From Salinigranum salinum (lineage in GTDB: Archaea > Halobacteriota > Halobacteria > Halobacteriales > Haloferacaceae), in contig NZ_VTOJ01000001.1 in assembly GCF_009176545.1 (NCBI RefSeq), positions 682,001-746,000 of the forward strand: a stretch of 64,000 nucleotides of DNA. Reading direction: 5' to 3'. A program made the position numbers and the translations under genes. A model generated the notes under the pieces. The model did not search any database and was not told where the DNA came from. It saw only the letters and a list, made by a program, of their open reading frames with translations. Of the stretch, positions 1-15,469 are shown piece by piece. How positions within the stretch are numbered: the stretch's first letter is position 1; each line of letters starts with the position of its first letter.

Positions 1-327
1 CTTTCGATGGGAACGCCAGCGATGCTCGAGACGATGCTTGAGCACGCCGACATCGGGGAGTTCATCAAGGACGCTATCAGTATCCACGAGATTCGAACCT
101 ACAAACCGGAGGCCGCAGTGTACCAGCACGCGGCGGCCCGGACCGGCACCCCAATCAACGAAATCGCTCATGTCGCCGGGCCATCGTTTGATGTCCGCGG
201 TGCGATGGCTGCCGGAATGCAGGGCATCTGGATCAACCGCACGAACGAGCCGTGGGATCCGTGGTTCCCGACTCCCGATCTGACGATCGACACGTTCGAC
301 GACCTCATTGCGGCGCTCGATATGTAA
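1..327 (+). CDS. HAD-family hydrolase, haloacid dehalogenase type II-like, C-terminal part
   Basis: The reading frame is open at the first base, so the N-terminal half lies outside the window. The visible part carries late HAD-superfamily motifs: a lysine in RTYKPE and an acidic loop around HVAGPSFDVRGAMAAGM, followed by GIWINR, the usual end of type II haloacid dehalogenases. These enzymes are cytosolic hydrolases that use an N-terminal Asp nucleophile, which cannot be checked here. Substrate is unknown. The gene runs toward the DUF4238 gene, so the two converge. The family is clear; the precise activity is inference. Confidence 0.85.
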   Translation, partial: LSMGTPAMLETMLEHADIGEFIKDAISIHEIRTYKPEAAVYQHAAARTGTPINEIAHVAGPSFDVRGAMAAGMQGIWINRTNEPWDPWFPTPDLTIDTFDDLIAALDM

Positions 328-350
328 CACTGGGAACCGGAGCGTTACCT

Positions 351-376
351 GACCGACTCGCGCCCTGTATTCAGCA
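351..376 (+). repeat. Imperfect direct repeat, left copy, flanking the DUF4238 gene
   Basis: This stretch matches 1721-1746 at 21 of 26 positions by eye, ending in the identical 12-mer CTGTATTCAGCA. The two copies lie 1,370 bases apart in the same orientation on either side of the DUF4238 gene. They could be attachment-site remnants or a duplication scar. Confidence 0.5.
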
Positions 377-460
377 GCGTCTACAACATCTCCTCAATTT
401 CTGCCAGTAGCGACGTGCGAGAGACAGAGGGAGGTATCATTGACTAATCGCAACGGGCCA

Positions 461-1615
461 TTAGAGGTTTAGCAATTGTTCAAGTTGCCTGACACACTGA
501 ATCAGTGCGATATCTGAGCCCCACCCAGCATTACTGAAGACGCTACGCACCAGATTCTGCCCCTCTTGAGCCCGCGTGGATGTCCGTTGTTGTACGTAGG
601 GGAGATGCGTCATCGTCGTACAATGGGGCAGGTTCGGAGACCGCTTGGGAACCTGATAGGGTGGCGTCTGATGGATATCGAACTCTTCCCCTTCTTCAGT
701 TTCAAGCGTAATCGTCCGCTCCTGACGACGGCGGTATTCATCCATCCGGTCATGCAGGTTCTGGATGTACTCCTCACTACTTGAGTGGAATACGACGACA
801 CTATCCGCGTTATGGAACTGGAGCAGATTTAGCTGGTCCACGACGTCAGGCGATTTGATTAGCACCTGTCGCTTAGAGTTACTGTTAAAGCTGTACACCA
901 GCGGGTCGTACAGGAGCATCATCCGATGCCGGTCTATAGGGCAGAAAATCTGGAGCCCGCGATTAGCGAGTCCCGCCGGGACCAGTCCATGCGATTGTTT
1001 GTACTGGGGAATGTCGTGAACCATGGGGGCATCCGAGATAATGAACTCTTGATCGGTGACGTTGCACAGTAACACCGCATGGAGGTCGCCAATTGCGAGG
1101 AACCCGAACAGGCCCTGTGCAATCAGAAAGTGATGATTCCCGAGGAGCGAAGCGTCCACGAGGACCTCTTCCTTCTCCTCTTCTGTGAGATTTGATTTCC
1201 AGTCAATCAACTCTTCGTATCGTCTTGCCTCTACGTCGTCTTGGAAGGCTTCCCGGAGTGTCTCCTCGCCGCTGTTGATATGATCTCTTGTGGATTTGGT
1301 CCTAGCTCGCTGGGTCGTGACGAAGGAGAGCAACAGCTGGCGGTGCTGGTCTGAGAGGTCCAGTAGGTCGGTTCCCCGGCGAAGATCACGGAGCGCCCGG
1401 GAATGATACTCGTCGACGTTCCCGAGTTCCATCTCAACGTTCGGTGGGTTGCCGTAGAGATACGTTCGAGAGCAAATTGAATCAATATTCTGTGGATGGG
1501 TCGACTCGCCAGCGATTGGGAGGACATTGGTTATTTTGTCGGTCGTCCAAGCTCTGAGGTAGTGTTGGGGGACGTAATGATGGTTCTTCGGATGGTCCTT
1601 TCGTTGCTGCCCCAT
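461..1615 (-). CDS. DUF4238 family protein
   Basis: A 384-residue protein starting at the ATG at 1615; a TTG 12 bases upstream is the alternative. The N-terminus has the HHYVPQHYLRAW signature typical of DUF4238, a family of unknown biochemistry found mostly in accessory and phage-related DNA. No membrane segments or signal peptide are visible. It lies downstream of the serine recombinase on the same strand, separated by about 200 bases with its own TATA-like element near 1640-1650, so it is probably a separate unit. Imperfect 26-base direct repeats bracket it (351-376 and 1721-1746), suggesting it moved as a cassette. Function is not known. Confidence 0.75.
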   Translation of the reverse strand: MGQQRKDHPKNHHYVPQHYLRAWTTDKITNVLPIAGESTHPQNIDSICSRTYLYGNPPNVEMELGNVDEYHSRALRDLRRGTDLLDLSDQHRQLLLSFVTTQRARTKSTRDHINSGEETLREAFQDDVEARRYEELIDWKSNLTEEEKEEVLVDASLLGNHHFLIAQGLFGFLAIGDLHAVLLCNVTDQEFIISDAPMVHDIPQYKQSHGLVPAGLANRGLQIFCPIDRHRMMLLYDPLVYSFNSNSKRQVLIKSPDVVDQLNLLQFHNADSVVVFHSSSEEYIQNLHDRMDEYRRRQERTITLETEEGEEFDIHQTPPYQVPKRSPNLPHCTTMTHLPYVQQRTSTRAQEGQNLVRSVFSNAGWGSDIALIQCVRQLEQLLNL

Positions 1616-1720
1616 CAGATAATTCAAGTAGGATGTTTGTGAATAATAGGTCTTGGGCCTGTGTGCTACTACTCAGGAAGGCTCTGTGAGCGAATACCGT
1701 GCACACCCCACGGACGGATT

Positions 1721-1746
1721 GGTCGATTCTCGCTCTGTATTCAGCA
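1721..1746 (+). repeat. Imperfect direct repeat, right copy, flanking the DUF4238 gene
   Basis: This is the partner of 351-376, sharing the 12-mer CTGTATTCAGCA at its right end. It lies about 67 bases beyond the stop codon of the serine recombinase, a common position for a recombinase attachment site. Confidence 0.5.
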
Positions 1747-1812
1747 CGGCCCAAAAACTATCAGCGCCAGATGATTTCAACAGAGCCGGAGGAGACACTA
1801 TATCGGTATCAA

Positions 1813-2769
1813 TTACACCTGGTTTCTGAGTTCGATCTTAGGCCCTCTACCCTCAACAAACAACTCGTACTGACCGACGACATGATCAATATGATTCGAT
1901 TTTCTTGAAGCTGACATATTTGTTCTCTCTGTATCACCGGACTTGAAGCGGTTTCTAGTCGCTGAAGCTTTAGAAAACGTTTCCTCGGAAACAATCCGGT
2001 AGTCTGAAATCTGCTTCGAGACGCCCGCTACTCTGTATTCTCCTGTGTAAATCACATTCCGAAGTACATCACCCACTGCCCGGGCACACCATTCGTTTGA
2101 TCGTTTCGTTTGTACCCCACGTTCGTTTAGCTGCTGTGCTACCTCTGACATTGACTTACGGTCAAGATACTCGTGGAATATTTGCTTCACCAATTGAGCT
2201 TCAGGCTCGTTCACGACCAACCGCCCGTCTTCTATGTCGTATCCCAGAGGAGGCGATTTATTCGGCCATCTGCCATCCATTGCCATCGCGTACAACCCCA
2301 TGCGTGAGCGGTCGCGAATCATATCTCGCTCAAATTCCGCGGCACTTGCGATATTTCTGAAGTTGAACCGACCAGCCGATGTGGTCGTGTCTATCTGTTC
2401 AGTCACGCTGTGAAGCGCGATGTCCCACTCTCGGAGTTGCCTCTCCAACTGAACTACGTGCAGGAGGCTCCGAGAGAATCGGTCGAGCTTCCAGAACACG
2501 ACGACATCAAACAGCCTGCGCTCTCCGTAATCCATCAATATTTGGAACTGCGGTCTGTCTACGTCCTTCCCGCTCTTTGCCTCGTCTTGGAACACGTACA
2601 GCGAAAGCCACTGCTGGAACTCACATCGCTCCAAGCATCGCCGCACCTGTTCCTTCAACGAGTACCCAAACTTTGGATTACTCTTGGACGTCCTCGCATA
2701 CACTGCCGCCCGTACCGTCTCCGGTTGTTCATCGGCTTCGGGTCTATCCCAAACGGACCCCTCAAACAT
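1813..2769 (-). CDS. Serine recombinase (resolvase/invertase plus recombinase domain)
   Basis: A 318-residue serine recombinase. The resolvase catalytic domain (about residues 19-165) has VYARTS with the predicted nucleophile Ser28, and KLDRFSRS with the catalytic arginines near 97 and 100. A recombinase domain follows (about 173-250, PPLGYD to YTGEYR). The C-terminus is short: there is no long zinc-ribbon/coiled-coil region as in 450-600-residue integrases. The ATG at 2769 lies inside the end of the TFB gene (8-base overlap), so it is very likely translationally coupled to TFB and the Cas4-like gene. It would catalyse site-specific strand exchange; whether integrase, invertase or excisionase is unknown. 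Confidence 0.9.
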   Translation of the reverse strand: MFEGSVWDRPEADEQPETVRAAVYARTSKSNPKFGYSLKEQVRRCLERCEFQQWLSLYVFQDEAKSGKDVDRPQFQILMDYGERRLFDVVVFWKLDRFSRSLLHVVQLERQLREWDIALHSVTEQIDTTTSAGRFNFRNIASAAEFERDMIRDRSRMGLYAMAMDGRWPNKSPPLGYDIEDGRLVVNEPEAQLVKQIFHEYLDRKSMSEVAQQLNERGVQTKRSNEWCARAVGDVLRNVIYTGEYRVAGVSKQISDYRIVSEETFSKASATRNRFKSGDTERTNMSASRKSNHIDHVVGQYELFVEGRGPKIELRNQV

Positions 2770-3559
2770 CGATAACCCCTCCTTGCCTGAACTCTTGTAG
2801 TCGAACCCGAATGGTTTCACGTGAAACCCCCGCTGCTTCCGCGATCTCACGTTGTGTTCGCTCCCCAGATTCCACAGCGTAGATTGCCGCGCTTGCCACT
2901 CCAACCGGATTCCGCCCGGCAACTAGTCCCTCAGATCTTGCCGACTGTACGAGTTCGCGGGCGCGTTCTACTGTCGTGGGCGTACACTCGAGCGACTTAC
3001 AGAGAGGTTCGATGTAACTCTCCGGCAAGCAGTCCGCATTTTCGAGATTCAGCTCTCTCTTCAGTCGTTTGGTGAGCCTGCCGATGTCACGAGAATCTCT
3101 ATTCATCCGGTGAGCGACAAGACTGATCGGAAGCGGTTCCCCTGCCTGTCGTGTGGCTATGCAGACCAGTGCGCCAACCACGTCCTCAGTATGCCGTCCA
3201 TCATTGAGTCTATCTCGTGCCACCTGACCGTACAGTGAAGCGACCTGTAGGCGCACATCGGAGGAAAGATCGAATTGGTTCCCAATCTGTTCCAGAATCT
3301 CCAGTGCAGTTGCGACACGCTGTTCAGTGCTGTTCCTGACTTTGAACACGTCAGTCCACTCTTCACTGTCCCTCGGATTGTCCGCACTCATCGCTTGACT
3401 CTCTCTGAGTTGACTCAATGCTTCCTCCACGCCCTCCTGCCGAATTACGAACCCACACGCAGTACAAACGCCTTCGACGAAGTCGAAGTCGCTCACGACC
3501 GATTCTCCACCACATGCGGGGCACACCGATGGCCCGTCACTGGGTGAACTGCTAATCAT
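2762..3559 (-). CDS. TFB (TFIIB-like) protein lacking the usual B-reader/linker stretch
   Basis: A 265-residue TFB homologue. It has an N-terminal zinc ribbon (Cys13, 16, 32, 35; CPAC and CTAC) that in TFBs docks on RNA polymerase, and two cyclin-like repeats ending in a helix-turn-helix (REIAEAAGVSRETIRVRL) that in TFBs reads the BRE. Between ribbon and first repeat there are only about 30 poorly conserved residues. The conserved B-reader and B-linker region of housekeeping haloarchaeal TFBs is not recognisable. Its ATG overlaps the Cas4-like stop (ATGA) and its end overlaps the recombinase start. It may redirect polymerase to island promoters or act as a blocker. Confidence 0.85.
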   Translation of the reverse strand: MISSSPSDGPSVCPACGGESVVSDFDFVEGVCTACGFVIRQEGVEEALSQLRESQAMSADNPRDSEEWTDVFKVRNSTEQRVATALEILEQIGNQFDLSSDVRLQVASLYGQVARDRLNDGRHTEDVVGALVCIATRQAGEPLPISLVAHRMNRDSRDIGRLTKRLKRELNLENADCLPESYIEPLCKSLECTPTTVERARELVQSARSEGLVAGRNPVGVASAAIYAVESGERTQREIAEAAGVSRETIRVRLQEFRQGGVIDV

Positions 3560-4671
3560 GTCGGGTCAACTCCCGGGCTGTCAGGGGTCAGCTGATGCTG
3601 CCTCTCCGGGTGTGGTTCAACCAACTCGGAAAGAGTACCCTCAGAGGCACACATCGGACAAACCGGATACGCGTTTGTGTCACCATCCCAGTCTACAGCG
3701 GCAACGTCGAAGCGATGAGATTCGACTTCGCAACACCAGTCGTAGACACAGTACTGATTTGCCAAATCAGGGTGCTGGATTGCAAGAGTCGGGGTCAGTC
3801 TGGCGTTGGAGTGTGACTGAACGTACGTCTCCACTTTCTTTCGAGGATACGTCACACCGGGAAGGAACCCGTTAGCTCCCTCGTCTTGGAAGCCAGCCTC
3901 CGCTTGTCCACATCGTTTTCTAAATGAACAGAAGTTGCACTCCCAATCGAAGACTGGCTCTGCCGGAGGCAGCTGTTCGTCGAGTCTGAACTCGGTGTGT
4001 GTGGTTGCCCACTCGAGAACGAGTTCGGACCATTGTTTCCTGTCGAATCGCACCTCAAACGCCTTGATGCTCAGAGTCGTTCGATCACCGTAGATTATCA
4101 GTCCGGTCCGGACCTCTGTCTCCCACTCTCGAGAGAGACCCTCCATGTAGGCCAGGAGCTGCGCGACATGGTGGGGATTCGGTGCCGTCGTATTCGCAAT
4201 GGAGTCCTTTGTCTTCACTTCCGTTGGGAGAATCGGTGTACTCTGAGCGTCGACGACAACTGGGTCTGTGCTTCCTCGAATCCGGATGTCACCTCCATTC
4301 GTCTCGACCGTGTAGTCCACCCACATCGAGTTCCGGACGTACGCTTTGTCGCCGACGACCGAACTCAGATATGGCATCAGGATTTCTTCTTCGAACCTCG
4401 TCCCTGTCCAGAAGATGCCGTCTGGGTCATCAACTTCTTCTGGCGCGTTGAGTTGCCGATAGAAGATTTTCCGGTGGCATTGATTGAGCTGGCTGGGTGA
4501 GTGCTGATTGGCTGGCTTTACTGGTGGTGGCGTGTTGAGATAGGGCTTCCCGGACTTGATGTTCTCAGCGAACTGCCGTTCCTCGTACCACGCGTCAAAG
4601 CCTGAGGGATCAATAGTCTCCAGAAGAGTCTGGATGAGGGTCGGGTGTTCCGGTGGTGCGGTCGATGGCAT
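3556..4671 (-). CDS. Cas4-like PD-(D/E)XK nuclease with predicted Fe-S cluster
   Basis: A 371-residue RecB/Cas4-type nuclease. The active-site order is visible: Glu94 region (GTRFEEE), Asp136 (GSTDPVV), Glu151-x-Lys153 (TEVKTK) and Gln171 (HHVAQLLAYM). Cys65 (NQCHRKIFYRQ) with Cys245, Cys248 and Cys254 (CNFCSFRKRC) fits the four-cysteine iron-sulphur cluster of Cas4 and AddB. A further cysteine set (308, 313, 314, 338, 341) forms a probable extra zinc module absent from ordinary Cas4. There is no cas1, cas2 or CRISPR array nearby, so this is not an adaptation-module Cas4. It is the first gene of a three-gene overlapping operon with TFB and recombinase. Confidence 0.85.
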   Translation of the reverse strand: MPSTAPPEHPTLIQTLLETIDPSGFDAWYEERQFAENIKSGKPYLNTPPPVKPANQHSPSQLNQCHRKIFYRQLNAPEEVDDPDGIFWTGTRFEEEILMPYLSSVVGDKAYVRNSMWVDYTVETNGGDIRIRGSTDPVVVDAQSTPILPTEVKTKDSIANTTAPNPHHVAQLLAYMEGLSREWETEVRTGLIIYGDRTTLSIKAFEVRFDRKQWSELVLEWATTHTEFRLDEQLPPAEPVFDWECNFCSFRKRCGQAEAGFQDEGANGFLPGVTYPRKKVETYVQSHSNARLTPTLAIQHPDLANQYCVYDWCCEVESHRFDVAAVDWDGDTNAYPVCPMCASEGTLSELVEPHPERQHQLTPDSPGVDPT

Positions 4672-4803
4672 TTGTGAAGGTACGATATGATGTCAGAGAA
4701 TATAGTTATAATGTGATTTACGTCTTAAAGAACACAGATAACATCATTTTGACCAAGAGCACCCCCATCCCTTTCTTTAGTCTAGGTCTGGAAGTCGTGC
4801 TGA
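4672..4803. promoter_or_regulatory. Divergent promoter region, Cas4-TFB-recombinase operon and winged-helix regulator
   Basis: A 132-base AT-rich gap between divergent starts. For the minus-strand operon a TATA-like stretch lies at about 4695-4708 (AATATAGTTATA on the plus strand). For the plus-strand gene a T-rich element lies at about 4773-4781. ATGATGT at 4687-4693 and its reverse complement ACATCAT at 4741-4747 form a widely spaced inverted pair that could be regulator half-sites. Assignments are by eye. Confidence 0.5.
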
Positions 4804-5061
4804 ATGCGGCCCCGTGCAGACTGGATGACTAAGGCTGACGATCACATCCTCGAGCTACTGAGCGAAGCGGGAATCGCCGCGAATCCTGCGACGATTGCGT
4901 TCAACATCGATTACGACGGTGGGTATGTCGCTCACCGGTGCCGCGAATTGGCGACCCACGACTTGATACATCGTGTGCATGAAACCAAAGCGATGTATCG
5001 AATAACCGAATTTGGAGAACAGTATCTCAGAGGTGACCTAACCACGGGGGATCTGGAGTGA
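4804..5061 (+). CDS. Small winged-helix regulator, phiH1-repressor-like
   Basis: An 85-residue winged-helix protein opening with RADWMTKADDHILELL and continuing with a helix-turn-helix (NPATIAFNIDYDGGYVAHRC) and a wing ending YRITEFGEQYL. This is the layout of the small haloarchaeal repressor-like proteins often annotated as phiH1 repressor or PadR/MarR-like, common in proviruses and plasmids. It is transcribed divergently from the Cas4-like operon across a 132-base promoter region and is the obvious candidate for its repressor. DNA-binding is well supported by family; the target is inference. Confidence 0.8.
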   Translation: MRPRADWMTKADDHILELLSEAGIAANPATIAFNIDYDGGYVAHRCRELATHDLIHRVHETKAMYRITEFGEQYLRGDLTTGDLE

Positions 5062-5211
5062 CCTTCGGACACAACTTACGTACCGGGTACAACGACGAAC
5101 CATAACTTCCTGCTTCGTCTGAGTCATCCGGTTGCAGTCGGAATACTCGAACCTATTGCAATCATTGGTCAGAGAGTTGTATGTGGTCGTCTGAATGTGT
5201 AGTACGTATCA

Positions 5212-5229
5212 TGTATATTTTCATATACA
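5212..5229. promoter_or_regulatory. Perfect inverted repeat, candidate operator
   Basis: TGTATAT and ATATACA surround a four-base TTTC, giving an 18-base palindrome about 70 bases before the ATG of the downstream gene at 5299. It lies in a 240-base intergenic region with no other gene. It could be an operator or part of a promoter. Confidence 0.35.
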
Positions 5230-5298
5230 AACTCGTTATTTCTGCGTTCCCGAAGTGCTAATGAACCTGCAGCATATATCAACAAGTTGCCACAGACG

Positions 5299-6006
5299 AT
5301 GAGGTGGAAAGTCCAATTGGAAGGGTATGAAAAAGGATTGAAACAGTTATCCGAATCATTCGACAATAACCCAAGAATATTCGAGGAAGAAGGAGCACAT
5401 TATATTTGGTCTTCTACATTTGAGCAGCTAGACCAATCAATTGAGGTTCAGGATGCAGGTGACAAAATTATCAGAATCATCCGTCGTCTTGGAGAGATTG
5501 ATTCGCTTCGTGTTAGAGAATTAGATGCTTCGACTGTGGTCGAGATTCAAGATGACGGGTCTGAACGCAAGGTTGTCCATGCTTCGGCTACAGCGACAGC
5601 AACAACCACGACGTCAGCACGGGTTTCAGTTGAGGGAGAAGAGCCAACTCCCAGAGCGGAGTCTACATATGAGTACACAAAATTGGCTCTGTCCGATGAT
5701 ACAGTACGGGAACTGATAGAACTGCGGGATAACGGGGATCATTGGGTGAATCTTTATCGAGTTTACGAATACATTCAAGACAATCTCGAGTCAGAAAATA
5801 ATATTGTTGAACAAGGATGGTGGACAGAGTCCGAGAAAGACCGATTTAAACAAACCGCGAATAGTTCAGAAGCTATCGGACACGAAGCACGACACGGAGA
5901 CACCAGAGTACCAGCACCATCAAACCCGATGGACCATGCGCAAGCCAAATCACTAATTGAAAACCTCATTAATAATTGGCTTAGACACAGACAAGAGAGT
6001 TCTTGA
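5299..6006 (+). CDS. Conserved protein of unknown function, probably transferred from bacteria
   Basis: A 235-residue protein from the ATG at 5299 (a TTG at 5287 is the alternative). Visible parts are an N-terminal domain starting MRWKVQLEG with a WSSTFEQL motif, a Thr/Ala-rich low-complexity joint near residues 95-110, and a helical C-terminal domain with WVNLYRVYEYI, FKQTANSSEAIGHEARHG and PMDHAQAKSLIENL. From memory this two-domain layout recurs in bacterial proteins of unknown function. Codon use is much more AT-rich than the core genes, supporting transfer. There are no known catalytic motifs, signal peptide or membrane segments. I assign no function. Confidence 0.75.
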   Translation: MRWKVQLEGYEKGLKQLSESFDNNPRIFEEEGAHYIWSSTFEQLDQSIEVQDAGDKIIRIIRRLGEIDSLRVRELDASTVVEIQDDGSERKVVHASATATATTTTSARVSVEGEEPTPRAESTYEYTKLALSDDTVRELIELRDNGDHWVNLYRVYEYIQDNLESENNIVEQGWWTESEKDRFKQTANSSEAIGHEARHGDTRVPAPSNPMDHAQAKSLIENLINNWLRHRQESS

Positions 6007-6223
6007 TTTATTTAAGCATCAAAAATGCCAGGTTCAATTGAGTACCAGCACGAACGATACACTTCTGGTTGGTAATATTCTACTGACTACATCCTCTACC
6101 TCTCATGAACCTATATTGACAGTTCATGTGTACTTTTGTGACTTACACTAGATACCTCAGTCAGAGAGATTGCACACAAAACAATAACTGACCCTGGATT
6201 TACTTTGATTGTAGGCTCCGATT

Positions 6224-7078
6224 ATGGACCTGCCTTACACCGTCGGCCAAAGGACGAAGAGGGCTAAAATTCACGAACGATTTGGAGGCAATCCTCAATC
6301 TGGAATCTCCAGCTCCGGACAGGTTGATGCAGTTTTCCTCTTCACTGACGACGAGGGCGATAATCCATATGAGGACAAATGGATTTCCGAAACTGAGTTC
6401 GAGTATTCTGGACAAGGACAACAAGATGACCAGAACTTCGACCGATCCAACCCAAATGGCCGAGCGAATGACGACCTGAAAAACCATGCTCAGTACGGTA
6501 AGGAGGTACATCTCTTCGAGAAATCAGTCGAAAATGACTCCATAGTCGTATACTTGGGCCAACTGGAATATGTTGACCATGATTTCAAACAGCGCAAGGA
6601 CGTGGACGGTAATCCTCGTCAAGAAATTCGCTTCGAACTTCAATTGGTGAAAAATGAATACACTGGTGATAGAGACGTTGTCTCGGACGAAGATACACTC
6701 AGGGAGTTAGCAAGGAACGCTTCCAGTAATGATTCGCCTTCGAGTAAACGGGGTGGAAAAAGTCACAAAACATCGAGGCTCGTTCGTGAATATGCCTTAG
6801 ACTGGGCAAACGGATACTGTCAAGGTTGTGACAATCCGGGCCCATTCAAGACTCCGAGTGGCGACCGCTATCTTGAAGTTCACCATGTTTTCCGCCGAGC
6901 TGATGGGGGTCCTGATCATCCAGACGCAGTGATTGCTCTTTGCCCCAACTGTCACAGTGAACGGCACTATGGGCGGAGAGGAGACCAATTCAATAGAAGA
7001 CTCATCGAAAGACTGCGGGAGCGAGCGATAGACCAAATTGGGGAGATTCCGCCGGTACTGAGAAAGAATCCTGAATAA
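6224..7078 (+). CDS. McrA-like SRA-HNH endonuclease, predicted modification-dependent restriction
   Basis: A 284-residue two-domain nuclease. The N-terminal half (about 5-145: GQRTKRAKIHERFGG, then HLFEKSVENDSIVVYLGQ) resembles the SRA-like domain of Streptomyces ScoMcrA, which recognises modified DNA. The C-terminus is a zinc-stabilised HNH nuclease with Cys199/Cys202, EVHH at 218-221 and CPNCH at 240-244. Family knowledge predicts cleavage of DNA carrying modified cytosine or phosphorothioate, a type IV restriction role that needs no methylase partner, and none is present. A TATA-like element at about 6196-6205 fits a leaderless start at 6224. It converges on the CARF-like gene. Confidence 0.8.
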   Translation: MDLPYTVGQRTKRAKIHERFGGNPQSGISSSGQVDAVFLFTDDEGDNPYEDKWISETEFEYSGQGQQDDQNFDRSNPNGRANDDLKNHAQYGKEVHLFEKSVENDSIVVYLGQLEYVDHDFKQRKDVDGNPRQEIRFELQLVKNEYTGDRDVVSDEDTLRELARNASSNDSPSSKRGGKSHKTSRLVREYALDWANGYCQGCDNPGPFKTPSGDRYLEVHHVFRRADGGPDHPDAVIALCPNCHSERHYGRRGDQFNRRLIERLRERAIDQIGEIPPVLRKNPE

Positions 7079-7299
7079 GGTTACACTCATGAAAATATCT
7101 CTGTCCATTACTCTTTAGCTTGGAGGAACATATTCCCCCGAATGTCGTATAATGCGCCGGGCTCCAGCCAGTCGTGGCAACTACTGATGATACACCTTCT
7201 CTATCCAGCACGTGACTGTTATCAGTTGCTGAGGATTTCAACTGAGCTTCCGATTGCCATCGGCGGTCGGTGGCGACATAGACGTTCACTTCACGGATC

Positions 7300-8043
7300 T
7301 CATTCTAACATATAACTGAACACTTTCAGCGTCTTCTTACCGTCCTCGGTCAACCAAATTCGCTTCTCTTGTCCTCGGCGCTGCTCTTCAATTAATCCCC
7401 TCTCTTGAAGCGGTTCTATGATTTCCTTGTCCACTGGATCATACAGGTTTTTCAGTTCTTGTCGGTCATACCGTGAAAGAAGTGGGAAATCCTCACCACG
7501 GACATACTCAACCAGTTCACCCTTCGCTACGTCTCCCTCCTCGTCGACGAACGCGAGAACTGCAAGATATTGTTTGTCCGGAAGTCCGATGGGGTACACG
7601 CTCAATGGAACAGTCTCCTTGACACCCTTCGAAATCGTCTCCCCATGATACCCCTTCGCCTTCACATAGTACGGACGAGCCTTCGTCGCCATGCATACGA
7701 TCATACCACTGATTGCCGTGATCTTACTTCCTGTCGCGAGGTTCACCAAAATTCGGTGTTCCGCGTATTCATCAGCTAATTCTGCGATGGCCCAGAGTGA
7801 AGAGTACAGATCAAAGAAGTCACACGATTTATCCTCGCACTCAATTCCTTTAGCATTCAATTCCGCTTCAACTGTTGCCTGACAATCCGCTCCTTTCTCG
7901 GTTTGATTCTCGTGAATCAGTAGAATGACGAAATCTGCATCGTTCTCGACAGCGGGAGCATAGACCCGCTCAGTCTCATATCCCATTGGCGCGATGTGAA
8001 CGTCCAAGGGACCTTTCAGACTCATGTGACATGTGTCTATCAT
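7300..8043 (-). CDS. HFX_2341-type transcriptional regulator, CARF-like domain plus winged helix
   Basis: A 247-residue protein. Residues about 13-125 form a Rossmann-like CARF-type fold with DVHIAPMGYETERV at the start and NLATGSKITA around residues 101-110, the position of the ligand-binding loop in CARF proteins. Residues about 150-247 form a winged-helix tail (PLQERGLIEEQRRGQEKRIWLTE written as two pieces in the protein). In CRISPR biology CARF-winged-helix proteins respond to nucleotide second messengers, but no type III CRISPR system is in this window. Start is ATG 8043; ATG 8025 is possible. Three TCTAGA palindromes lie 37-70 bases upstream. Confidence 0.75.
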   Translation of the reverse strand: MIDTCHMSLKGPLDVHIAPMGYETERVYAPAVENDADFVILLIHENQTEKGADCQATVEAELNAKGIECEDKSCDFFDLYSSLWAIAELADEYAEHRILVNLATGSKITAISGMIVCMATKARPYYVKAKGYHGETISKGVKETVPLSVYPIGLPDKQYLAVLAFVDEEGDVAKGELVEYVRGEDFPLLSRYDRQELKNLYDPVDKEIIEPLQERGLIEEQRRGQEKRIWLTEDGKKTLKVFSYMLE

Positions 8044-8079
8044 CCTGCAACAAAGTCCTTGCTAGCATGGCATATGACT

Positions 8080-8113
8080 TCTAGAAAGGTGTAGATGGTC
8101 TAGAACGTCTAGA
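8080..8113. promoter_or_regulatory. Cluster of three TCTAGA palindromes, candidate operator
   Basis: TCTAGA occurs at 8080-8085, 8099-8104 and 8108-8113, inside 34 bases just upstream of the expected promoter of the CARF-like regulator gene (start 8043). CTAG-containing sites are normally rare in haloarchaeal DNA, so three together are notable. Autoregulation by the encoded winged helix is the simplest reading. Confidence 0.45.
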
Positions 8114-8291
8114 GTGTCAGACAATTCAAGTAGCACTGACACCTACATCTCTATGTGCTCTAACCAATGAGCGACCGACGAATTCGAGGAACAGCAGACG
8201 CCTGCCCGCTGCAACGAGCAGGTACTTTCCCCCAAACGCCGACCGCCACTGTCACACGCGCTTCAAGTGACACATCGGACAACTATTACTT

Positions 8292-8307
8292 AGTTACTTC
8301 GGTAACT
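8292..8307. promoter_or_regulatory. Hairpin/palindrome AGTTAC-TTCG-GTAACT
   Basis: A perfect six-base inverted repeat around TTCG, 38 bases before the ATG at 8345. As RNA it would form a UUCG tetraloop hairpin; as DNA it could be an operator overlapping the promoter. Nothing else distinguishes the two. Confidence 0.35.
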
Positions 8308-8344
8308 TTGGGGCGAGATATGCCGCAAACACGTTCCAATCTGA

Positions 8345-8965
8345 ATGACTAAAGAGGAACTCGATCGATTCATCCGCTCTCAGAAGCGGAAGACGCACAG
8401 CGTAGACGAACAAGTTCTCATCGCCCTCTCGATGTACGAGCGGGGACTTGGCCCGCTCCACGACGGGGCGAAGCGGGGTGATCTTGAAGACGAACTCCGC
8501 CTCAAGCTTGACTATAACATCGGCACGTCTCTGAGCCATCTCGAAGAAATCGGAGTGGTAGAAAGCTTCCTACCGCCAGGTCCGACCGGCTACGCGATCA
8601 GTGAACGCTTGGACGATATCGTCAACGGCAAAGTTGACGAGATAGCAGAGACCGACATCGAAAACCTGATCCGCCATATCCAGGACGACGATCCTGCCTC
8701 AGGAGGAGACGCGCCAGCAGTAGCCGACGGGTCCGGAGTTACTGTCCGCCGAGTGGTGGCCAACACATTCGATCTCACACCCGAAGGAGTCGAAGACTAC
8801 CTCCGACACGGTGACCAGGTCAAGAAGTTGAACAAAGCCATCGACGCGATCGAAGACAGCCCAGAGGCCGACAAGCGCGACGATTACGGGCGTATCGTCT
8901 TCAGAAACACAGCATACCGCTACCGCCTCACCGAGAAGGCGGTGGAACTAGTTGAGGGCGAGTAG
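8345..8965 (+). CDS. Winged-helix-like protein of unknown function
   Basis: A 206-residue acidic protein. The first 85 residues (SVDEQVLIALSMYERGLG, then LSHLEEIGVVESF and GYAISERL) read as a winged-helix domain; a charged linker with DDDPASGGDAP follows, and the C-terminal part ends in another helical segment with YRYRLTEKAVELVEGE. No catalytic motif is visible. Its TAG stop is followed immediately, with no spacer, by the ATG of the GIY-YIG gene, so the two are cotranscribed and likely coupled. It may be a regulator or DNA-binding partner of the downstream nucleases. Function is not assigned. Confidence 0.7.
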   Translation: MTKEELDRFIRSQKRKTHSVDEQVLIALSMYERGLGPLHDGAKRGDLEDELRLKLDYNIGTSLSHLEEIGVVESFLPPGPTGYAISERLDDIVNGKVDEIAETDIENLIRHIQDDDPASGGDAPAVADGSGVTVRRVVANTFDLTPEGVEDYLRHGDQVKKLNKAIDAIEDSPEADKRDDYGRIVFRNTAYRYRLTEKAVELVEGE

Positions 8966-9265
8966 ATGCCGATTCAAAAGAAGTGGAGCCACGCGACGAA
9001 GGAACACGTCGTCAGCACGGTCCCTGAGAAGGGGGGTGTCTACGAGCTCAAATCGTTCGGTGAACTGGTCTACATCGGCAAAGCTAACAGCAATCTCCGT
9101 GACCGTCTCCTGGACCACGTTGAGAAGCGTAATCCGAGCCATTTCCGGTTCAAGACGGCTGGATTCTTCGGAAGTCCGACCCGAATGGAGCGTAAGCATC
9201 TGCTTGCATACGGAGATTCGGATTCGGAGACACCGCCCTGGAATAACCGGATTCCACGACCCTAG
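8966..9265 (+). CDS. Small GIY-YIG domain protein
   Basis: A 99-residue protein consisting almost only of a GIY-YIG fold: GVYELKSFGELVYIGKA supplies the GVY and YIG strands, the following LRDRLLDH has the conserved arginine, and RMERKHL may provide the metal-binding glutamate. GIY-YIG enzymes cut one DNA strand with a metal ion. A stand-alone domain this short usually needs a targeting partner, and the zero-gap gene upstream is the natural candidate. The MCM-nuclease fusion begins 64 bases downstream with its own TATA element. The fold is well supported; activity is inferred. Confidence 0.75.
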   Translation: MPIQKKWSHATKEHVVSTVPEKGGVYELKSFGELVYIGKANSNLRDRLLDHVEKRNPSHFRFKTAGFFGSPTRMERKHLLAYGDSDSETPPWNNRIPRP

Positions 9266-9297
9266 AAACTGAAATTTCTCGGACCAATCAGGGCCGA

Positions 9298-9310
9298 GGT
9301 TATTTTACTC
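9298..9310 (+). promoter_or_regulatory. TATA-like promoter element of the MCM-nuclease gene
   Basis: GTTATTTTACTC lies about 27 bases before the ATG at 9330, the distance expected for a leaderless haloarchaeal transcript. It supports choosing this ATG rather than the TTG at 9318. Confidence 0.5.
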
Positions 9311-9329
9311 TACCCCCTTGTCAAGAAAT

Positions 9330-10898
9330 ATGGCTCAACCATCTCAAGATAACGAATTCACTGAGTATCTCATTCAATTCTACCGTGAGAACTACGATGA
9401 TGAAATTGATTGCCTCACCAATCGATATCCACACGAACAACGGTCTCTGTACGTAGATTACGATGACCTACACGCATTTGATTCTGACCTTGCAGAGGAT
9501 TACCTCACCAAGCCGATCCAGATGCAGCGGTATGCGGAAAAAGCCCTCCGTCTCTATGACCTACCAGCGGATGTTTCACTCGATCAGGCTCATGTGCGAC
9601 TGACCAATGTCCCAGAGGAGAGTACTATTGAGCCTGGTAATGTCCGAGTCGATGATGACCTCCTTGGTAAACTCGTAACGGTTCGTGGATACGTGGACGC
9701 AGCCTCCGATGTGGATGCAAGTGTAACTGAGGCCGCTTTCGAGTGCCAAAGGTGTGGAACTATGACTTACCTCCCACAGCACCGTACTGGCTTCCAAGAA
9801 CCACATGAGTGTCAGGGTTGCGAGAGACAGGGGCCGTTCGACATCAACTATGATAAATCCGAGTTCATTGATCGTCAAACCGCCACCCTGGTTCCACTAC
9901 CAGAGGCAGACGTAAAGGCTAATGGTGAATTACAGGTTGTTTTAGAAGACGACATTGCTGGACAGGTGGCAACCGGAGACCGAGTTTCAGTAATCGGGGT
10001 ACTGCACATTGGGCAAGAGGAATCGAAAACGATGTACAACACATATTTGGACGGAGTCTCAATTTCCAAACTGGCAGCTGAAAACACCGGCCTCTACAGC
10101 GGCCCATATCTCGACACACCCAAAGGAGAAGTTGACAGCGAAGCACTTGAGAAATTCGTGCAACGCTCGGTTGCTGTGCTTCGAACACAGACACTTAACG
10201 AGATGGAGACTCAGAGCAAGGTAATCACTCCGTTCCTCCGACTGTTGGGCTGGAGCGTTTACCACCTTGAGTTTCGTTTCGAGTATTCTGATTCAGAAGT
10301 CGGCGGTGATAAGGTAGATTACGGACTACTTGATCAGGATGAAACACCTGTATTCGTCGTAGAAGCGAAGCAGGAGGGAAAGAATCTTGATCTCCATTTC
10401 AAACAGATCAAGAAGTATATGCGCCTCTTCCAAGTCCAGCTTGGTCTGCTTACAAACGGTGAACGGTACGTATTTTTTTCAAAGGATCCAGATGCCAGCT
10501 CCGCTAGTGAGTTAGTATTGCTTGATTGTAAGCTTCAAAATCTCCCCAATCATCGAGATGTACTTGCAGCCTATACCCAAGAATCGGTGGTTGGCGGTCA
10601 TACCTCATTGGACGAACTAGTGCAATCTGCGAAAGAACGAGAGAAATCAGAGGGTCAATTCGATGCTGATGCCTTCCGTCAAACATCTCCTGAAGATAGA
10701 GACACGCTCGATGCCGCAAAATCAATCATTTCAGATATTGACGCTGATTCAGATCTCGGTGCTCCGATTGAACGAGTGTTTCGGCAGTTTGAATCCGAGC
10801 TTGATCTTGACCGGGAAGAGGCCGAAGAGCTAATACATGATCTTAGGGTGAACGGAAAAATATATGAGCCACATCAGAATCATCTTCGTACGACATAG
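9330..10898 (+). CDS. MCM-like protein with the AAA+ motor replaced by a PD-(D/E)XK nuclease
   Basis: A 522-residue chimera. Residues 9-250 match the N-terminal part of haloarchaeal MCM helicase: helical domain with RYPHEQRSLYVDYDDL, OB fold, zinc finger Cys139/142/161/164 (FECQRCGTMTYLPQ; CQGCERQGPF). Residues 440-522 match the MCM C-terminal linker and winged helix, ending NGKIYEPHQNHLRTT. The whole ATPase region, with Walker A, Walker B and arginine finger, is absent. Instead residues about 272-420 form an HsdR_N-type nuclease: ETQSKVITPFLRLLGW, Asp330 (KVDYGLL), Glu345-x-Lys347 (VVEAKQ), QIKKY and LLTNGERY. It could join or block MCM rings and cut the DNA they hold. Partner and target are inference. 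Confidence 0.88.
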   Translation: MAQPSQDNEFTEYLIQFYRENYDDEIDCLTNRYPHEQRSLYVDYDDLHAFDSDLAEDYLTKPIQMQRYAEKALRLYDLPADVSLDQAHVRLTNVPEESTIEPGNVRVDDDLLGKLVTVRGYVDAASDVDASVTEAAFECQRCGTMTYLPQHRTGFQEPHECQGCERQGPFDINYDKSEFIDRQTATLVPLPEADVKANGELQVVLEDDIAGQVATGDRVSVIGVLHIGQEESKTMYNTYLDGVSISKLAAENTGLYSGPYLDTPKGEVDSEALEKFVQRSVAVLRTQTLNEMETQSKVITPFLRLLGWSVYHLEFRFEYSDSEVGGDKVDYGLLDQDETPVFVVEAKQEGKNLDLHFKQIKKYMRLFQVQLGLLTNGERYVFFSKDPDASSASELVLLDCKLQNLPNHRDVLAAYTQESVVGGHTSLDELVQSAKEREKSEGQFDADAFRQTSPEDRDTLDAAKSIISDIDADSDLGAPIERVFRQFESELDLDREEAEELIHDLRVNGKIYEPHQNHLRTT

Positions 10899-11177
10899 AC
10901 TCAGAGCGAGGTGATCTACTCCTGTTGGCAATACATAGCCCGACACCGTTCTGGTCACCGTGGGAACCCCTTTCTTCTAGTATCTGAAGCTGAGTAGCAT
11001 AATTCCACATCAAGCACTGAAGAACGACTAAGTACTCTGCACTCGTCTCAACTCTTGCAAACCGCGTGATAGCGACGACCCGCGTCACGTAGCCTGACGG
11101 ACTCTTCAGACGGAAGGGTGTCCTGTATATAAGCAGGTCGCCGTAGTCTGTTGATTCCGAACCGTCAGAGAAGATGA

Positions 11178-11249
11178 TGGACTCGCCGGGATTTGAACCC
11201 GGGGCCTCTTCCTTGCGAAGGAAGCGATCTGCCACTGATCTACGAGCCC
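11178..11249 (-). tRNA. tRNA-Ala (anticodon CGC)
   Basis: A 72-nucleotide cloverleaf on the minus strand. The acceptor GGGCTCG pairs with CGAGTCC, including the G3:U70 pair that identifies alanine tRNAs. The anticodon stem CTTCC/GGAAG frames loop TTCGCAA, giving CGC. The T arm has GGTTCAAATCC. CCA is not encoded. Its 3' end faces the accessory island, the orientation expected if the gene serves as an integration target. It lies 184 bases downstream of rpsJ and may be part of that transcript. Confidence 0.95.
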
Positions 11250-11433
11250 GCACTCCCACGCAGTCGGTGGGTCGACTTGTACCTTCTGTTTCCGTCGCCG
11301 TCGTCCCCGGGTCTGCAACCGAAGAGCGACAACCGGCGCGCCTTAGCGCCGCGCCTCTACGATACCGCCGTCCGTCCGCCCGACGCCGACCGCACCGTGT
11401 GGCCGGGCCGGGAGACGAGGACGGCCGACATCG

Positions 11434-11742
11434 TCAGTCCTCGAGGACGATCTCGATCGAGACGTCGTTCGGAACCTGGATGCGCATCAGCTGACGCAGT
11501 GCGCGTTCGTCGGCGTCGATGTCGATGAGCCGCTTGTGGACGCGCATCTCCCAGTGCTCCCAGGTCGCCGTCCCTTCCCCGTCGGGGGATTTGCGGGTCG
11601 GGACCTCCAGCGTCTTCGTCGGCAGCGGGATCGGTCCGCTGAGGTTGACACCTGTCTTGTTGGCGATCTCGCGGACGTCGCCGCAGATGCTGTCGAGGTC
11701 CTCGGGACTCGTGCCAGCGAGTCGGACGCGTGCTTGCTGCAT
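11434..11742 (-). CDS. rpsJ: 30S ribosomal protein S10 (uS10)
   Basis: 102 residues, full length for archaeal uS10: [15 protein letters not shown] at the start, [12 protein letters not shown] in the centre and [20 protein letters not shown] near the end. It binds 16S rRNA in the 30S head. It begins three bases after the aEF1A stop codon, the conserved tuf-rpsJ order of archaea and bacteria, so the two are cotranscribed. Confidence 0.97.
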
Positions 11743-11745
11743 CTG

Positions 11746-13011
11746 TTATCGCTCGTTGACCGAGAGGACCTTGCCGGCGGCGATGGTCTGCCCCATGTCG
11801 CGGATGGCGAAGCTCCCGAGTTCGGGGATGTCACCCGAAGGCTCGATCGAGAGCGGCTTCTGGGGACGGACCGTGACGACCGCGGCGTCACCGGACTTGA
11901 TGAAGTCGGGGTTCTCCTCGGCGACCTCGCCCGTCTTGGGGTTGATCTTCTGGTCGATCGACTCGATGGTACACGCGACCTGCGCAGTGTGCGCGTGGAA
12001 GACCGGCGTGTAGCCCGCGGTGATGACCGAGGGGTGCTGCATCACGACGATCTGGGCCTGGAACGTCTCGGCGACCGTCGGCGGGTCGTCGGCCGGGCCA
12101 CAGACGTCACCGCGGCGGATGTCGTCCTTGCCGACCCCGCGGACGTTGAACCCGACGTTGTCGCCGGGGCCGGCCTGCGGCACCTCCTCGTGGTGCATCT
12201 CGACCGTCTTCACTTCGCCGCCAACGTCCGACGGCTGGAACGAGACGTTGTCGCCGGGCTTCATGATCCCCGTCTCGATCCGGCCGACGGGGACGGTCCC
12301 GATGCCGGAGATGGTGTAGACGTCCTGGATGGGGAGTCGAAGCGGCGCGTCCGTCGGCGGCTCCGGCTTCGGCAGGTCGTTGAGAGCCTGCAGGAGCGTG
12401 GGACCGTCGTACCAGTCCATCGTGCCGGACTTCTCGGCGACGTTGTCGCCCTCGAACGCCGAGATGGGGACGAACGTGGCGTCGTCGGACTTGAAGCGGA
12501 CCTGTTTGAGGAGCTTCTGGACCTCCTCTTTGACCTGCTTGTACGTGTCCTCGCTGTAGTCGACGACGTCCATCTTGTTCACGCCGATGATGAGCTCGTT
12601 GATCCCCAGCGTGCGGGCGAGGAAGACGTGCTCGCGGGTCTGGGGTGCGACGCCGTCGTCTGCCGCGACGACGAGGACGGCGTTGTCGGCCTGCGAGGCA
12701 CCCGTGATCATGTTCTTCACGAAGTCACGGTGGCCCGGGCAGTCGACGATGGTGAAGTAGTACTCGTCCGTGTCGAACTCCTGGTGGGCGATGTCGATGG
12801 TGACACCACGCTCGCGCTCCTCGGCGAGGTTGTCCATCACGTAGGCGAACTCGAAGCCGCCCTTGCCCTTCTCCTCGGCTTCCTCTCGGTACTGCTCGAT
12901 GACGTGCTCCGGGACGGAGCCGGTCTCGAACAGGAGGCGGCCGACCAGTGTGCTCTTTCCGTGGTCAACGTGGCCGATGATGGCCAGGTTCTGATGCGGT
13001 TTGTCACTCAT
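11746..13011 (-). CDS. tuf: Translation elongation factor aEF1A
   Basis: 421 residues from the ATG at 13011, which gives the usual [18 protein letters not shown] start; a GTG 12 bases upstream is less likely. GTPase motifs are intact: GHVDHGKST at 13-21, DCPGH and NKMD, followed by domains 2 and 3. It delivers aminoacyl-tRNA to the ribosome. A TATA-like element (GTAAAACG on the plus strand, about 13062-13071) fits a promoter for tuf-rpsJ. Confidence 0.97.
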
Positions 13012-13314
13012 GGATGAAGTCACGCGCTAAGGCGCTCTGTAGGGCACTTTTGCCTGTAAGGGGTAAAACGATTTCGATACGCTACACGGCCGATTCCGGC
13101 GCTGTCGGGCGGTTTGTGACCCATCCGCACACGTCACGGGGTGCGACCACTCGGTCCGCTCTGCCGTGTCGACTGGTCGGACGGGGTCCGGTGCTCGCTC
13201 ACAACGCGTCTCCTCCTGTCGATTCGCCCGTACGCGTGCTCCTCGGCGAGACGTTCGCGTCCACGGACGCAGGAGGGTCCCTGCTCGGTCGCGCCCGGTC
13301 GCGGTCGGCTCGTT
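13012..13314. promoter_or_regulatory. tuf promoter region
   Basis: About 300 bases between hom and tuf. The minus-strand TATA-like element at about 13062-13071 would serve tuf. I see no gene in the rest. Confidence 0.45.
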
Positions 13315-14277
13315 TTATCGATCCAGCCGTCCGACGTCCGCCAGGACGGCCGTAGCCGTCTCGGGACCACCGGCACCGCGCCCGCTGACGTTCAGCTGGC
13401 CGGCGTGTTCGGTCTCCAGCTGGACGATGTTCTGCGTCCCCGTCACGGCGAGTGCGCCGTGTTGCGGAACCAGTCGCGGACCGACCCGGACCCGCTCGGG
13501 TGTCGCCTCTCCGATGAGCCGGATCGTCCGGCCGTCCTCCGTGGCGAGTTCGAGCGCGCTCCCCGGAATCTCCTTGATCCCCTCGACGTCCGCGTCTTCG
13601 AGTGAGAACTCCCGTCCGTCGCGGGCGTCGCTCAGCACGTTCGCGAGGATGACGCACTTCAGCGCCGCGTCGGTCCCCTCGACGTCGAAGGACGGATCCG
13701 CCTCGGCGACGCCGAGATCCTGTGCCTCGGCGAGGACGTGTTCGTAGCCCAGTCCCTCGGCGGCCATCCGCGAGAGGACGAAGTTCGCCGTCCCGTTCAA
13801 CACGCCGCGCGCCGCGGAGATGTGTGCGGGGCCGTAGTCGTCGATGGTCGACAGCACCGGCATCGCCCCACCGACGGTCGCCTCGAACAACACGCGACCC
13901 TCGCTGTCGGCTTCCAGCGCCCGGAGGTCGCGGTACCGTTCCGCGACCGGTCCCTTGTTCGCCAGCACCACGTGCCGGTCGCGTTCGAGCGCGCTCCGGC
14001 AGTGTGAGAAGCCGGGGTCGGCGTCGCCGAGCGTCGTCGGCGTCGCCTCCACGAGCACGTCGTAGTCGGCTGCGAGGACGTCGGCGGGGTCGGCGTCGCC
14101 GACGACTCCCTCCCGCTCTTTCCGGTCGAGTGCCGCGTCGCCGTCGATCCCCTCGCCGTCGACGACCGCCGACGAGGAGTCCGCGAATGCGACCACCCGG
14201 TGTCCATACTCGGCGGCGAGGTCGACGACGTTCCCGCCGACGGCGCCAGCGCCGAGCACCGCGAGTCGCAGGCTCAC
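13315..14277 (-). CDS. hom: Homoserine dehydrogenase
   Basis: 320 residues from a GTG at 14277 that overlaps the ACT-gene stop (GTGA). The N-terminal Rossmann fold has LAVLGAGAVGGNVVDLA, and the catalytic part has ANKGPVA, FEATVGGAMPVL, VLNGTANFVLSRM and the conserved acid/lysine region EGTDAALKCVILAN. It reduces aspartate semialdehyde to homoserine in threonine and methionine synthesis. It lacks a fused regulatory ACT domain; the separate ACT protein encoded just upstream probably fills that role. Confidence 0.93.
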   Translation of the reverse strand: MSLRLAVLGAGAVGGNVVDLAAEYGHRVVAFADSSSAVVDGEGIDGDAALDRKEREGVVGDADPADVLAADYDVLVEATPTTLGDADPGFSHCRSALERDRHVVLANKGPVAERYRDLRALEADSEGRVLFEATVGGAMPVLSTIDDYGPAHISAARGVLNGTANFVLSRMAAEGLGYEHVLAEAQDLGVAEADPSFDVEGTDAALKCVILANVLSDARDGREFSLEDADVEGIKEIPGSALELATEDGRTIRLIGEATPERVRVGPRLVPQHGALAVTGTQNIVQLETEHAGQLNVSGRGAGGPETATAVLADVGRLDR

Positions 14278-14894
14278 TGTGCACCCTCCGTCAGCGGTTC
14301 GACGAGGTGGAGGTCCTTCTCGGCAGCGATCTCGCGGACCGTCGCGAGCGCCCTCTCGGTCTTCCCCGCTCGGGTCGCCAGTCGGAGTCGTGCGCTCGAG
14401 GGTTGGTCCGTCCCCTCGGGTGCCGACAGCGACAGGTCCGACAGCGACGCCTCGGTCGACTCCTCGATACGGTGGAGCGTGTCGGAGAGATCGGTGTCGA
14501 CGAGGTGGCCGACGAGCAGGATGGTCAGCTCCTCGCCGTATCGCTCCGCACCCGCCTGAATGACGTTGATCCCCTCCTGTCTGAGTGCCTCGACGATCCC
14601 CTCGAACCGATCGGGTGGACACTCGAGGTCGACCTCGACGGGGATCCGTCCGCGGGGCGTGATGTTCCCCCGTTCGTGGAAGATCGAGAGGAGGTTGCCC
14701 CCGTTGTCGGAGATCGGTCTGAGCGCGGCGAGCAACTGGCCCGGCTCGTCGACGAGTTCCAGCCGAACCGTATGCGCCTGAGGCCGTTCCCCGCCGTCGG
14801 TCTCCGTCTCCCGGGAGCCGTCCGGCTCGCTCTCGGACGTCGCGCCACCCGCAGCCCCCTCGTGGGTCGCGTCGGCCTCGACGGGCTCGGTCAT
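14274..14894 (-). CDS. ACT-domain amino-acid-binding regulator
   Basis: 206 residues from the ATG at 14894, preceded by a GGGGGTGA Shine-Dalgarno-like stretch. An acidic disordered N-terminus (about 1-40) precedes an ACT domain (VRLELVDEPGQLLAALRPI, then GGNLLSIFHERG) and a second, more divergent ACT-like half (ELTILLVGHLVDTDLSDTL, then RLRLATRAGKTERALATV). ACT domains bind amino acids, and the four-base overlap with hom points to feedback control of homoserine dehydrogenase. This pairing is familiar from other haloarchaea. Confidence 0.85.
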   Translation of the reverse strand: MTEPVEADATHEGAAGGATSESEPDGSRETETDGGERPQAHTVRLELVDEPGQLLAALRPISDNGGNLLSIFHERGNITPRGRIPVEVDLECPPDRFEGIVEALRQEGINVIQAGAERYGEELTILLVGHLVDTDLSDTLHRIEESTEASLSDLSLSAPEGTDQPSSARLRLATRAGKTERALATVREIAAEKDLHLVEPLTEGAQ

Positions 14895-15469
14895 CGGCTC
14901 ACCCCCTCGAGACGCGTGACGGGACAGCTTCCCCCTGTTGTCCCCGGCAGGGAGCCAAGGAGTCGTCGCTCCGTGCCGATGCGTCTCGGGGGATGCGTAC
15001 CCGTTCGCATGGTAGCGGTGTGTTCTCCGTCGCGGTATAAGCTTCCGTCGGTTGCGGACCGCGAGCGGACGGTCGGTTTCCCGTGCCCGCGCGGTCGTCG
15101 GCTCACTCCGTCGGAGCCCAGGCGTCACGTGACGTGCTGACTCGGGCCGATCGGTCACGCGCGAGTTCGTCTGCCCGTTCTGTGGTTCCGTCGTCGAACC
15201 CGTGTCCGTCGTCGAACCCCGCCGAGCCCCGGACCGATCCGCGTGCACGCGCCGCCTCTCTCGGGCCGGTCGAAGTCGCCGTTCGCTCCGCAGCCGTGAC
15301 TCCGGGGGTGTCGCTACCGACAGAACGTCTGTCCGGGGCCGTCGCGAGAGGATGGGGCGTCGTGACCGTGATCGCACCCACGACGGACGCGGGCCGACGC
15401 CGCTGGCGAGTGCGTCCGCGGCGTCGCGGAACTGACCGATCCGGGCCGACTCGGACTGTGCGTCCCGGC
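14895..15469. other. Intergenic stretch with one weak ORF
   Basis: 575 bases between the ACT gene and fusA. The only candidate is a GTG-start minus-strand ORF at 15103-15381 (92 residues), acidic and low complexity (for example GFDDGHGFDDG), with no recognisable domain and only moderate GC bias at third positions. I do not call it as a gene. I see no terminator or RNA gene. Confidence 0.4.

Follow-up and report, generated by a model that had tools for sequence, protein, structure and literature searches.

A possible recombination operon of haloarchaeal integrative islands combining a TFB-like protein, a short serine recombinase and a Cas4-like nuclease

In the haloarchaeon Salinigranum salinum, a Cas4-like nuclease, a homologue of the basal transcription factor TFB and a short serine recombinase (RecS) are encoded by three overlapping genes, which raises the question of what a transcription factor homologue does in such company. 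The genes lie near the left end of the window, i.e., the whole stretch of 64,000 nucleotides that was analyzed, and belong to an island that extends beyond it (Table 1). An ATGA overlap (3556-3559) joins the nuclease and TFB genes, as the sequence-only reading of this DNA had stated. The TFB-like gene and recS share 8 nt (2762-2769, ATGTTTGA); the earlier figure of eight bases was correct, but it had been given as a spacing between genes that in fact overlap. An alternative TTG start codon of recS at 2922 would lead to a protein of 369 aa, but the homologues align to the ATG start.

Table 1. Features of the operon and its island. Positions refer to the window; negative values lie to its left, in locus L054, whose coordinates equal the window position plus 19900.
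Feature	Position	Strand	Remarks
Tyrosine recombinase near att	-14182..-13115		left of window, L054
Tyrosine recombinase	-4523..-3327		left of window, L054
recL, long serine recombinase	-3346..-1967		left of window, L054
In-window part of the island	1..11177		whole island about -15087..11177, ~26 kb
DUF4238 protein	461..1627	-	between recS and recL; family scan
recS, short serine recombinase	1813..2769	-	318 aa from ATG at 2769, stop at 1813
TFB-like gene, without B-reader/B-linker	2762..3559	-	265 aa
Cas4-like PD-(D/E)XK nuclease gene	3556..4671	-	371 aa
wHTH/nuclease intergenic region	4672..4803		presumed divergent promoters
Divergent small winged-helix (wHTH) regulator gene	4804..5061	+	
HNH protein, weak SRA match, type IV restriction-like	6224..7078	+	family scan
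CARF (HFX_2341-like) protein	7300..8043	-	family scan
MCM N-terminal/OB + HSDR_N nuclease domain protein	9318..10898	+	family scan
tRNA-Ala(CGC), island integration target	11178..11249	-	

A family-wide search with recS gave 16 loci in 14 of 170 genomes and an order-wide search identified recS in 28 of 392 genomes (24 genera, eight families), each set containing one genome per species; one copy, in Haloarcula marina, is plasmid-borne. In the pooled sample of 37 loci, in which each gene was scored with its own profile, a TFB-like gene adjoined recS in all cases, with an overlap or a gap of at most 7 nt at 36 loci; the exception, G354, is broken. Because of this constant neighborhood, the gene set is not due to chance. 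Haloarchaea have many TFBs, and eight further TFB matches were present in the genome of the window, so that a housekeeping TFB might have come to lie here fortuitously; co-occurrence at all 37 loci and the distinct character of these TFBs described below refute this view, which we regard as having practically no probability. The nuclease gene accompanied recS at 28 of the 37 loci; at two of the nine loci that lack it, the contig stops within the locus. The genes occurred in either of two orders, nuclease-TFB-recS or nuclease-recS-TFB. A gene for a longer serine recombinase, recL, was found near recS at every locus, downstream and convergent at 35, and many loci hold tyrosine recombinase genes in addition to recS and recL. 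The three-gene set proposed from the window is thus real, conserved and operonic in other haloarchaea, but incomplete as the core of an element, which includes recL (37/37) and often tyrosine recombinases too. Separate occurrence, which had been named as an argument against the set, applies to the nuclease (51 of 392 genomes compared to 28 for recS) and not to recS, which had a TFB-like neighbor throughout.

The distance matrices of RecS, TFB and RecL were correlated with Mantel r values of 0.79-0.85 (none of 2000 permutations was as high), and those of the nuclease tracked the other three less well (r 0.52-0.66), with shared host ancestry still included in all of these values. A 4.3 kb unit nuc-recS-TFB-recL is shared at 87-92% across three genera between unrelated flanks, which could alternatively reflect just conserved genes amid shuffled cargo. 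At L038 and L040, two ParB-like genes (named by eye) replace the nuclease gene upstream of TFB/recS. Two adjacent tyrosine recombinase genes, with products of about 300 and 350-390 aa, are found repeatedly close to the module at L176, L184, L185, and L187 (G368, G387, G275, and G354), and the same kind of pair is present in nuclease-only islands (L224, L228, L229, and L232).

The operon is part of a mobile element, as the sequence-only reading had suspected: its island, with a GC content of 48.6% versus 67-68% outside, lies at a tRNA-Ala gene and is missing in the congener G165, where the flanks adjoin with the junction placed near -14920. The 3′ end of the tRNA-Ala gene recurs at the far end of the island (-15087..-15065), and incomplete copies are present at -14934 and -14244. 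Judged from the sequences compared, the tRNA-Ala site is an integration hot spot. Precise empty sites were also found in G031 for the island of G037 (28.8 kb, tRNA-Arg) and in G024 for the island of G032 (27 kb), so that boundaries could be mapped from strains with and without the element and from the tRNA-end repeats, as had been suggested. At eight of the nine loci with a co-oriented upstream tRNA gene, an exact copy of 12-40 nt of the tRNA 3′ end was present downstream, and the repeat-bounded islands span about 22-51 kb. The far repeat is located about 1.1 kb from a tyrosine recombinase gene in G032, G117, G106, and G150, and in the island of the window such a gene lies about 0.9 kb inward of this repeat; this arrangement was not present in G013, G037, and G073. 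Recombinase genes of some islands may have escaped detection because the stretch compared came to an end. In G079, G046, G057, and G045, no upstream tRNA gene or tyrosine recombinase was present within the stretch examined. The G079 module lies in a replacement of about 20 kb beside a truncated pilus-ATPase gene, and clean island boundaries had to be rejected here, as the left edge abuts the truncated gene without a clean repeat. In G071 (L198, L199), an insertion of about 22 kb splits the same pilus-type ATPase gene. Neither for recS nor for recL did the loci compared reveal a recombination site, which speaks against the reading preferred below, as do the loci without an upstream tRNA gene or tyrosine recombinase. 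In the congeners G166 and G167 (L048, L049, L052, and L053), the tRNA-Ala site is followed by other, unrelated DNA.

These locations bear on the idea that the genes maintain a replicon, with RecS and RecL resolving multimers of plasmids or circular islands and with TFB and nuclease as accessory proteins. It would fit the plasmid-borne copy of H. marina, the ParB-like pair at two loci (recognized by eye, not by family scan) and the occurrence of the nuclease near Cdc6 on megaplasmids. However, large contigs carry the majority of the copies examined, a tRNA gene precedes nine of them, with its 3′ end repeated at eight, and no replication gene was seen among the part of the island genes that was scanned, which makes this explanation improbable.

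RecS matched the Resolvase (2e-33) and Recombinase (3e-16) families and has both the catalytic and the Recombinase domain of large serine integrases. The catalytic residues Y24-A-R-T-S28, R72, D96-R97, and R100-S101 were invariant in 17 of 17 aligned copies. The protein stops at about 310-320 aa, without CxxC pairs and without a C-terminal zinc-ribbon/coiled-coil region; C-terminal CxxC motifs are present in RecL. A hydrophobic N-terminal stretch (maximal 19-residue hydropathy of at least 1.6), possibly for membrane anchoring, was found in 14 of the 30 RecL proteins measured, e.g., those encoded at L054:16554-17930 and L039:11214-12782. Left of the window, recL and a tyrosine recombinase gene overlap each other and both point toward the operon. 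A viral origin of recS was rejected, as virus and phage collections gave no more than generic serine recombinase matches, of up to 44% across part of the length.

The divergent wHTH protein matched phrog_2440, a transcriptional regulator (3e-28), and such a gene was located within 400 bp of the first gene of the operon at 25 loci. Control of the operon by this protein, as proposed earlier, is in line with the conservation of the gene, but the promoter region between wHTH and nuclease in the window contained no significant inverted repeat. A palindromic operator, strong at a few loci and absent from the window copy, was discarded as a candidate, and so was an internal attachment site at the 3′ end of the wHTH gene, whose sole duplication (G117) resembles a fragment of an additional wHTH gene.

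The nuclease matched PDDEXK_1 (2e-6) and the Cas4 model TIGR00372 (4e-12), the latter with 46.5 bits and below the equivalog cut-off of 65. Residues D136, E151, K153, and Q171 of the PD-(D/E)XK motif and four cysteines of the FeS type (C65, C245, C248, and C254) were invariant in 14 relatives, and the nearest fold to its model, which is of moderate confidence (pLDDT 72), was Cas4 SSO0001 (4ic1, E 8e-10). PHROG profiles matched the protein; a comparison with phage records gave no match. Among the neighbor proteins scanned, which represent part of the island genes, no match was obtained for cas1 or cas2 and, in general family scans, for a Cas1 casposase or PolB.

The more frequent occurrence of the nuclease allowed a comparison with genomes in which recS had no match, from which 20 nuclease loci were inspected. 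At roughly half of these loci, genes for a protein of about 190 aa, a protein of about 180 aa and a tyrosine recombinase come after the nuclease gene. Weak HTH-type matches of the ~180 aa protein and an N-terminal part that looks ribbon-helix-helix-like by eye hint at a DNA-binding protein. At other nuclease-only loci and on several megaplasmids, a Cdc6-like gene precedes the nuclease gene and a DDE transposase gene follows it. One Cas4-like nuclease thus keeps company with serine recombinases, tyrosine recombinases and DDE transposases, and the gene order suggests that the position beside it takes varied recombination enzymes, each with its own companion. This is our main argument for regarding the TFB-like protein as the putative partner of the recombinase.

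The TFB-like protein matched the TFIIB family (1e-19) and keeps the Zn ribbon and two cyclin folds, with an HTH in the second. The folds nearest to its AF2 model (pLDDT 87.6) were archaeal TFB (core 1d3u) and TFIIB. Its PRK00423 score of 142.7 bits was under the cut-off of 384. The B-reader motif was absent from all 37 element TFBs and present in all seven ordinary TFBs of the window genome. The spacer between ribbon and core comprised 25-35 aa in the 34 measurable element TFBs and 67-71 aa in four of the seven ordinary TFBs, the other three being misread or missed by the pattern; in an alignment, the B-reader/B-linker loop was visible in every one of the seven. The B-reader and the B-linker of ordinary TFBs lie in this spacer, and the B-linker enters the polymerase and stabilizes the template strand (PMC7289017). 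Since both are missing, an ordinary role of the element TFB in transcription initiation is unlikely, and the proposal that the element uses its own TFB to be transcribed in the ordinary way becomes doubtful on this point. By their sequences, the element TFBs are a distinct subfamily and not a housekeeping paralogue, as which the gene might have been dismissed.

The TFB-like protein might nevertheless be an element-specific transcription factor, which with host TBP would mark element promoters, recruit RNA polymerase alone or together with canonical TFB, as Sulfolobus TFB3 does, and switch on recS and the cargo. Given the retained ribbon and second-cyclin HTH, it may still recruit polymerase; both cyclin folds are kept as well, the fold agrees with that of TFB bound to TBP and BRE (1d3u), and TFB paralogues working with canonical TFB are known (PMC7289017). 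But B-reader and B-linker are absent from all 37 proteins, the gene is linked to the recombinase gene instead of the cargo, and a TFB is absent from other versions of the module. We therefore consider this explanation unlikely, though deserving attention.

In the reading we prefer, to which we give an even chance, the three genes form the recombination operon in a family of integrative islands of haloarchaea, the mapped members of which are mostly at tRNA genes, and the TFB-like protein controls or targets RecS. More tentatively, and with somewhat less than even confidence, we propose that a TFIIB-family protein without initiation loops has become a dedicated partner of a serine recombinase for targeting or directionality, with the Cas4-like nuclease as third component. 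The recombination of the island and the role of TFB in it, as we infer them, would proceed as follows. A tyrosine integrase encoded near the far repeat would insert the island at the tRNA gene, and RecS together with RecL would perform a further site-specific reaction, which may be excision, circle processing or cargo exchange. Either by itself or together with host TBP, the TFB-like protein would bind DNA adjacent to the recombination site and control or target RecS instead of starting transcription. The nuclease might trim DNA ends or intermediates, and the wHTH protein would repress the operon.

The Ccr recombinases of the staphylococcal cassette chromosome are paired and move defense cargo, as seen in the present islands. 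RecS is likewise a serine recombinase, with CcrB as best NCBIfam match (8e-33), but with 318 aa and 113.8 bits it stays below the CcrA/B/C equivalog cut-off of 900; moreover, the present islands have a tRNA target and TFB and Cas4-like partners. XisF of the cyanobacterial fdxN element is a serine recombinase that requires two accessory proteins for excision (PMC4874684), and XisI is counted among the recombination directionality factors (PMC5311408). The XisF/XisH/XisI set may resemble the operon in this composition; RecS scored 88.9 bits, under the XisF equivalog cut-off of 375, and no TFB is reported for the fdxN element. According to passages of PMC8371274 and PMC11078007, the latter on Halorubrum ezzemoulense, haloarchaeal tRNA islands and SNJ2-type integrases share with our islands a target at the tRNA 3′ end, the use of short att repeats (13 bp are reported in a SNJ2-type virus), a low GC content, the presence of tyrosine recombinases and restriction-gene cargo. 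The present islands differ by recL and by the operon of nuclease, TFB and serine recombinase, neither of which is mentioned in these passages, and the review of this pair notes archaeal serine recombinases in transposons as never fully investigated. Solo Cas4 proteins associated with mobile elements are similar in fold, FeS-type cysteines and carriage (PMC5704561); the present nuclease differs by extra C-terminal Cys pairs and its recombinase context, and a term search of that paper gave no haloarchaeal or serine recombinase context. Sulfolobus TFB3 and eukaryotic Brf1 (TFIIIB) are also TFB/TFIIB paralogues diverged from canonical TFB, but the element TFB belongs to a recombinase operon. Brf1 aligns with it over nearly the full length (12-259), and structure 7q5b represents tRNA-gene targeting by Ty3-TFIIIB, an analogy that we take as a lead only.

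A search of open-licence papers, which is weak evidence for novelty, found neither the gene set nor a TFB recruited to DNA movement. If our reading is correct, a family of mobile elements across eight haloarchaeal families has two serine recombinases as well as tyrosine recombinases, along with defense cargo, a basal transcription factor has been re-used for recombination in the form of a TFB paralogue serving DNA mobility, and a testable role emerges for one class among the numerous TFB paralogues of haloarchaea.

Besides the proteins listed in Table 1, the cargo included type I restriction genes (L028, L030) and PbeA/PbeC and pAgo (L037, L039), and several of the cargoes scanned are predicted defense genes. 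The operon itself could then be a defense system riding on the island, and the match of the nuclease to Cas4 models would agree with this. No PADLOC model, however, matched TFB or RecS, and the operon set stays constant across islands while the cargo varies, so that we consider this very unlikely. The protein encoded at 9318-10898 also contains a winged-helix domain and gave no AAA+ match. The G073 island (L035/L077/L078) contains genes resembling a 7-deazaguanine DNA-modification set, named by eye, and an additional TFB-like protein of 301 aa encoded near recL. Beyond the tRNA gene, an EF-1alpha-like gene (11746-13023) has a second, 88% identical copy on another contig (G000:C2:1885004-1886259), and similar second copies are present in congeners.
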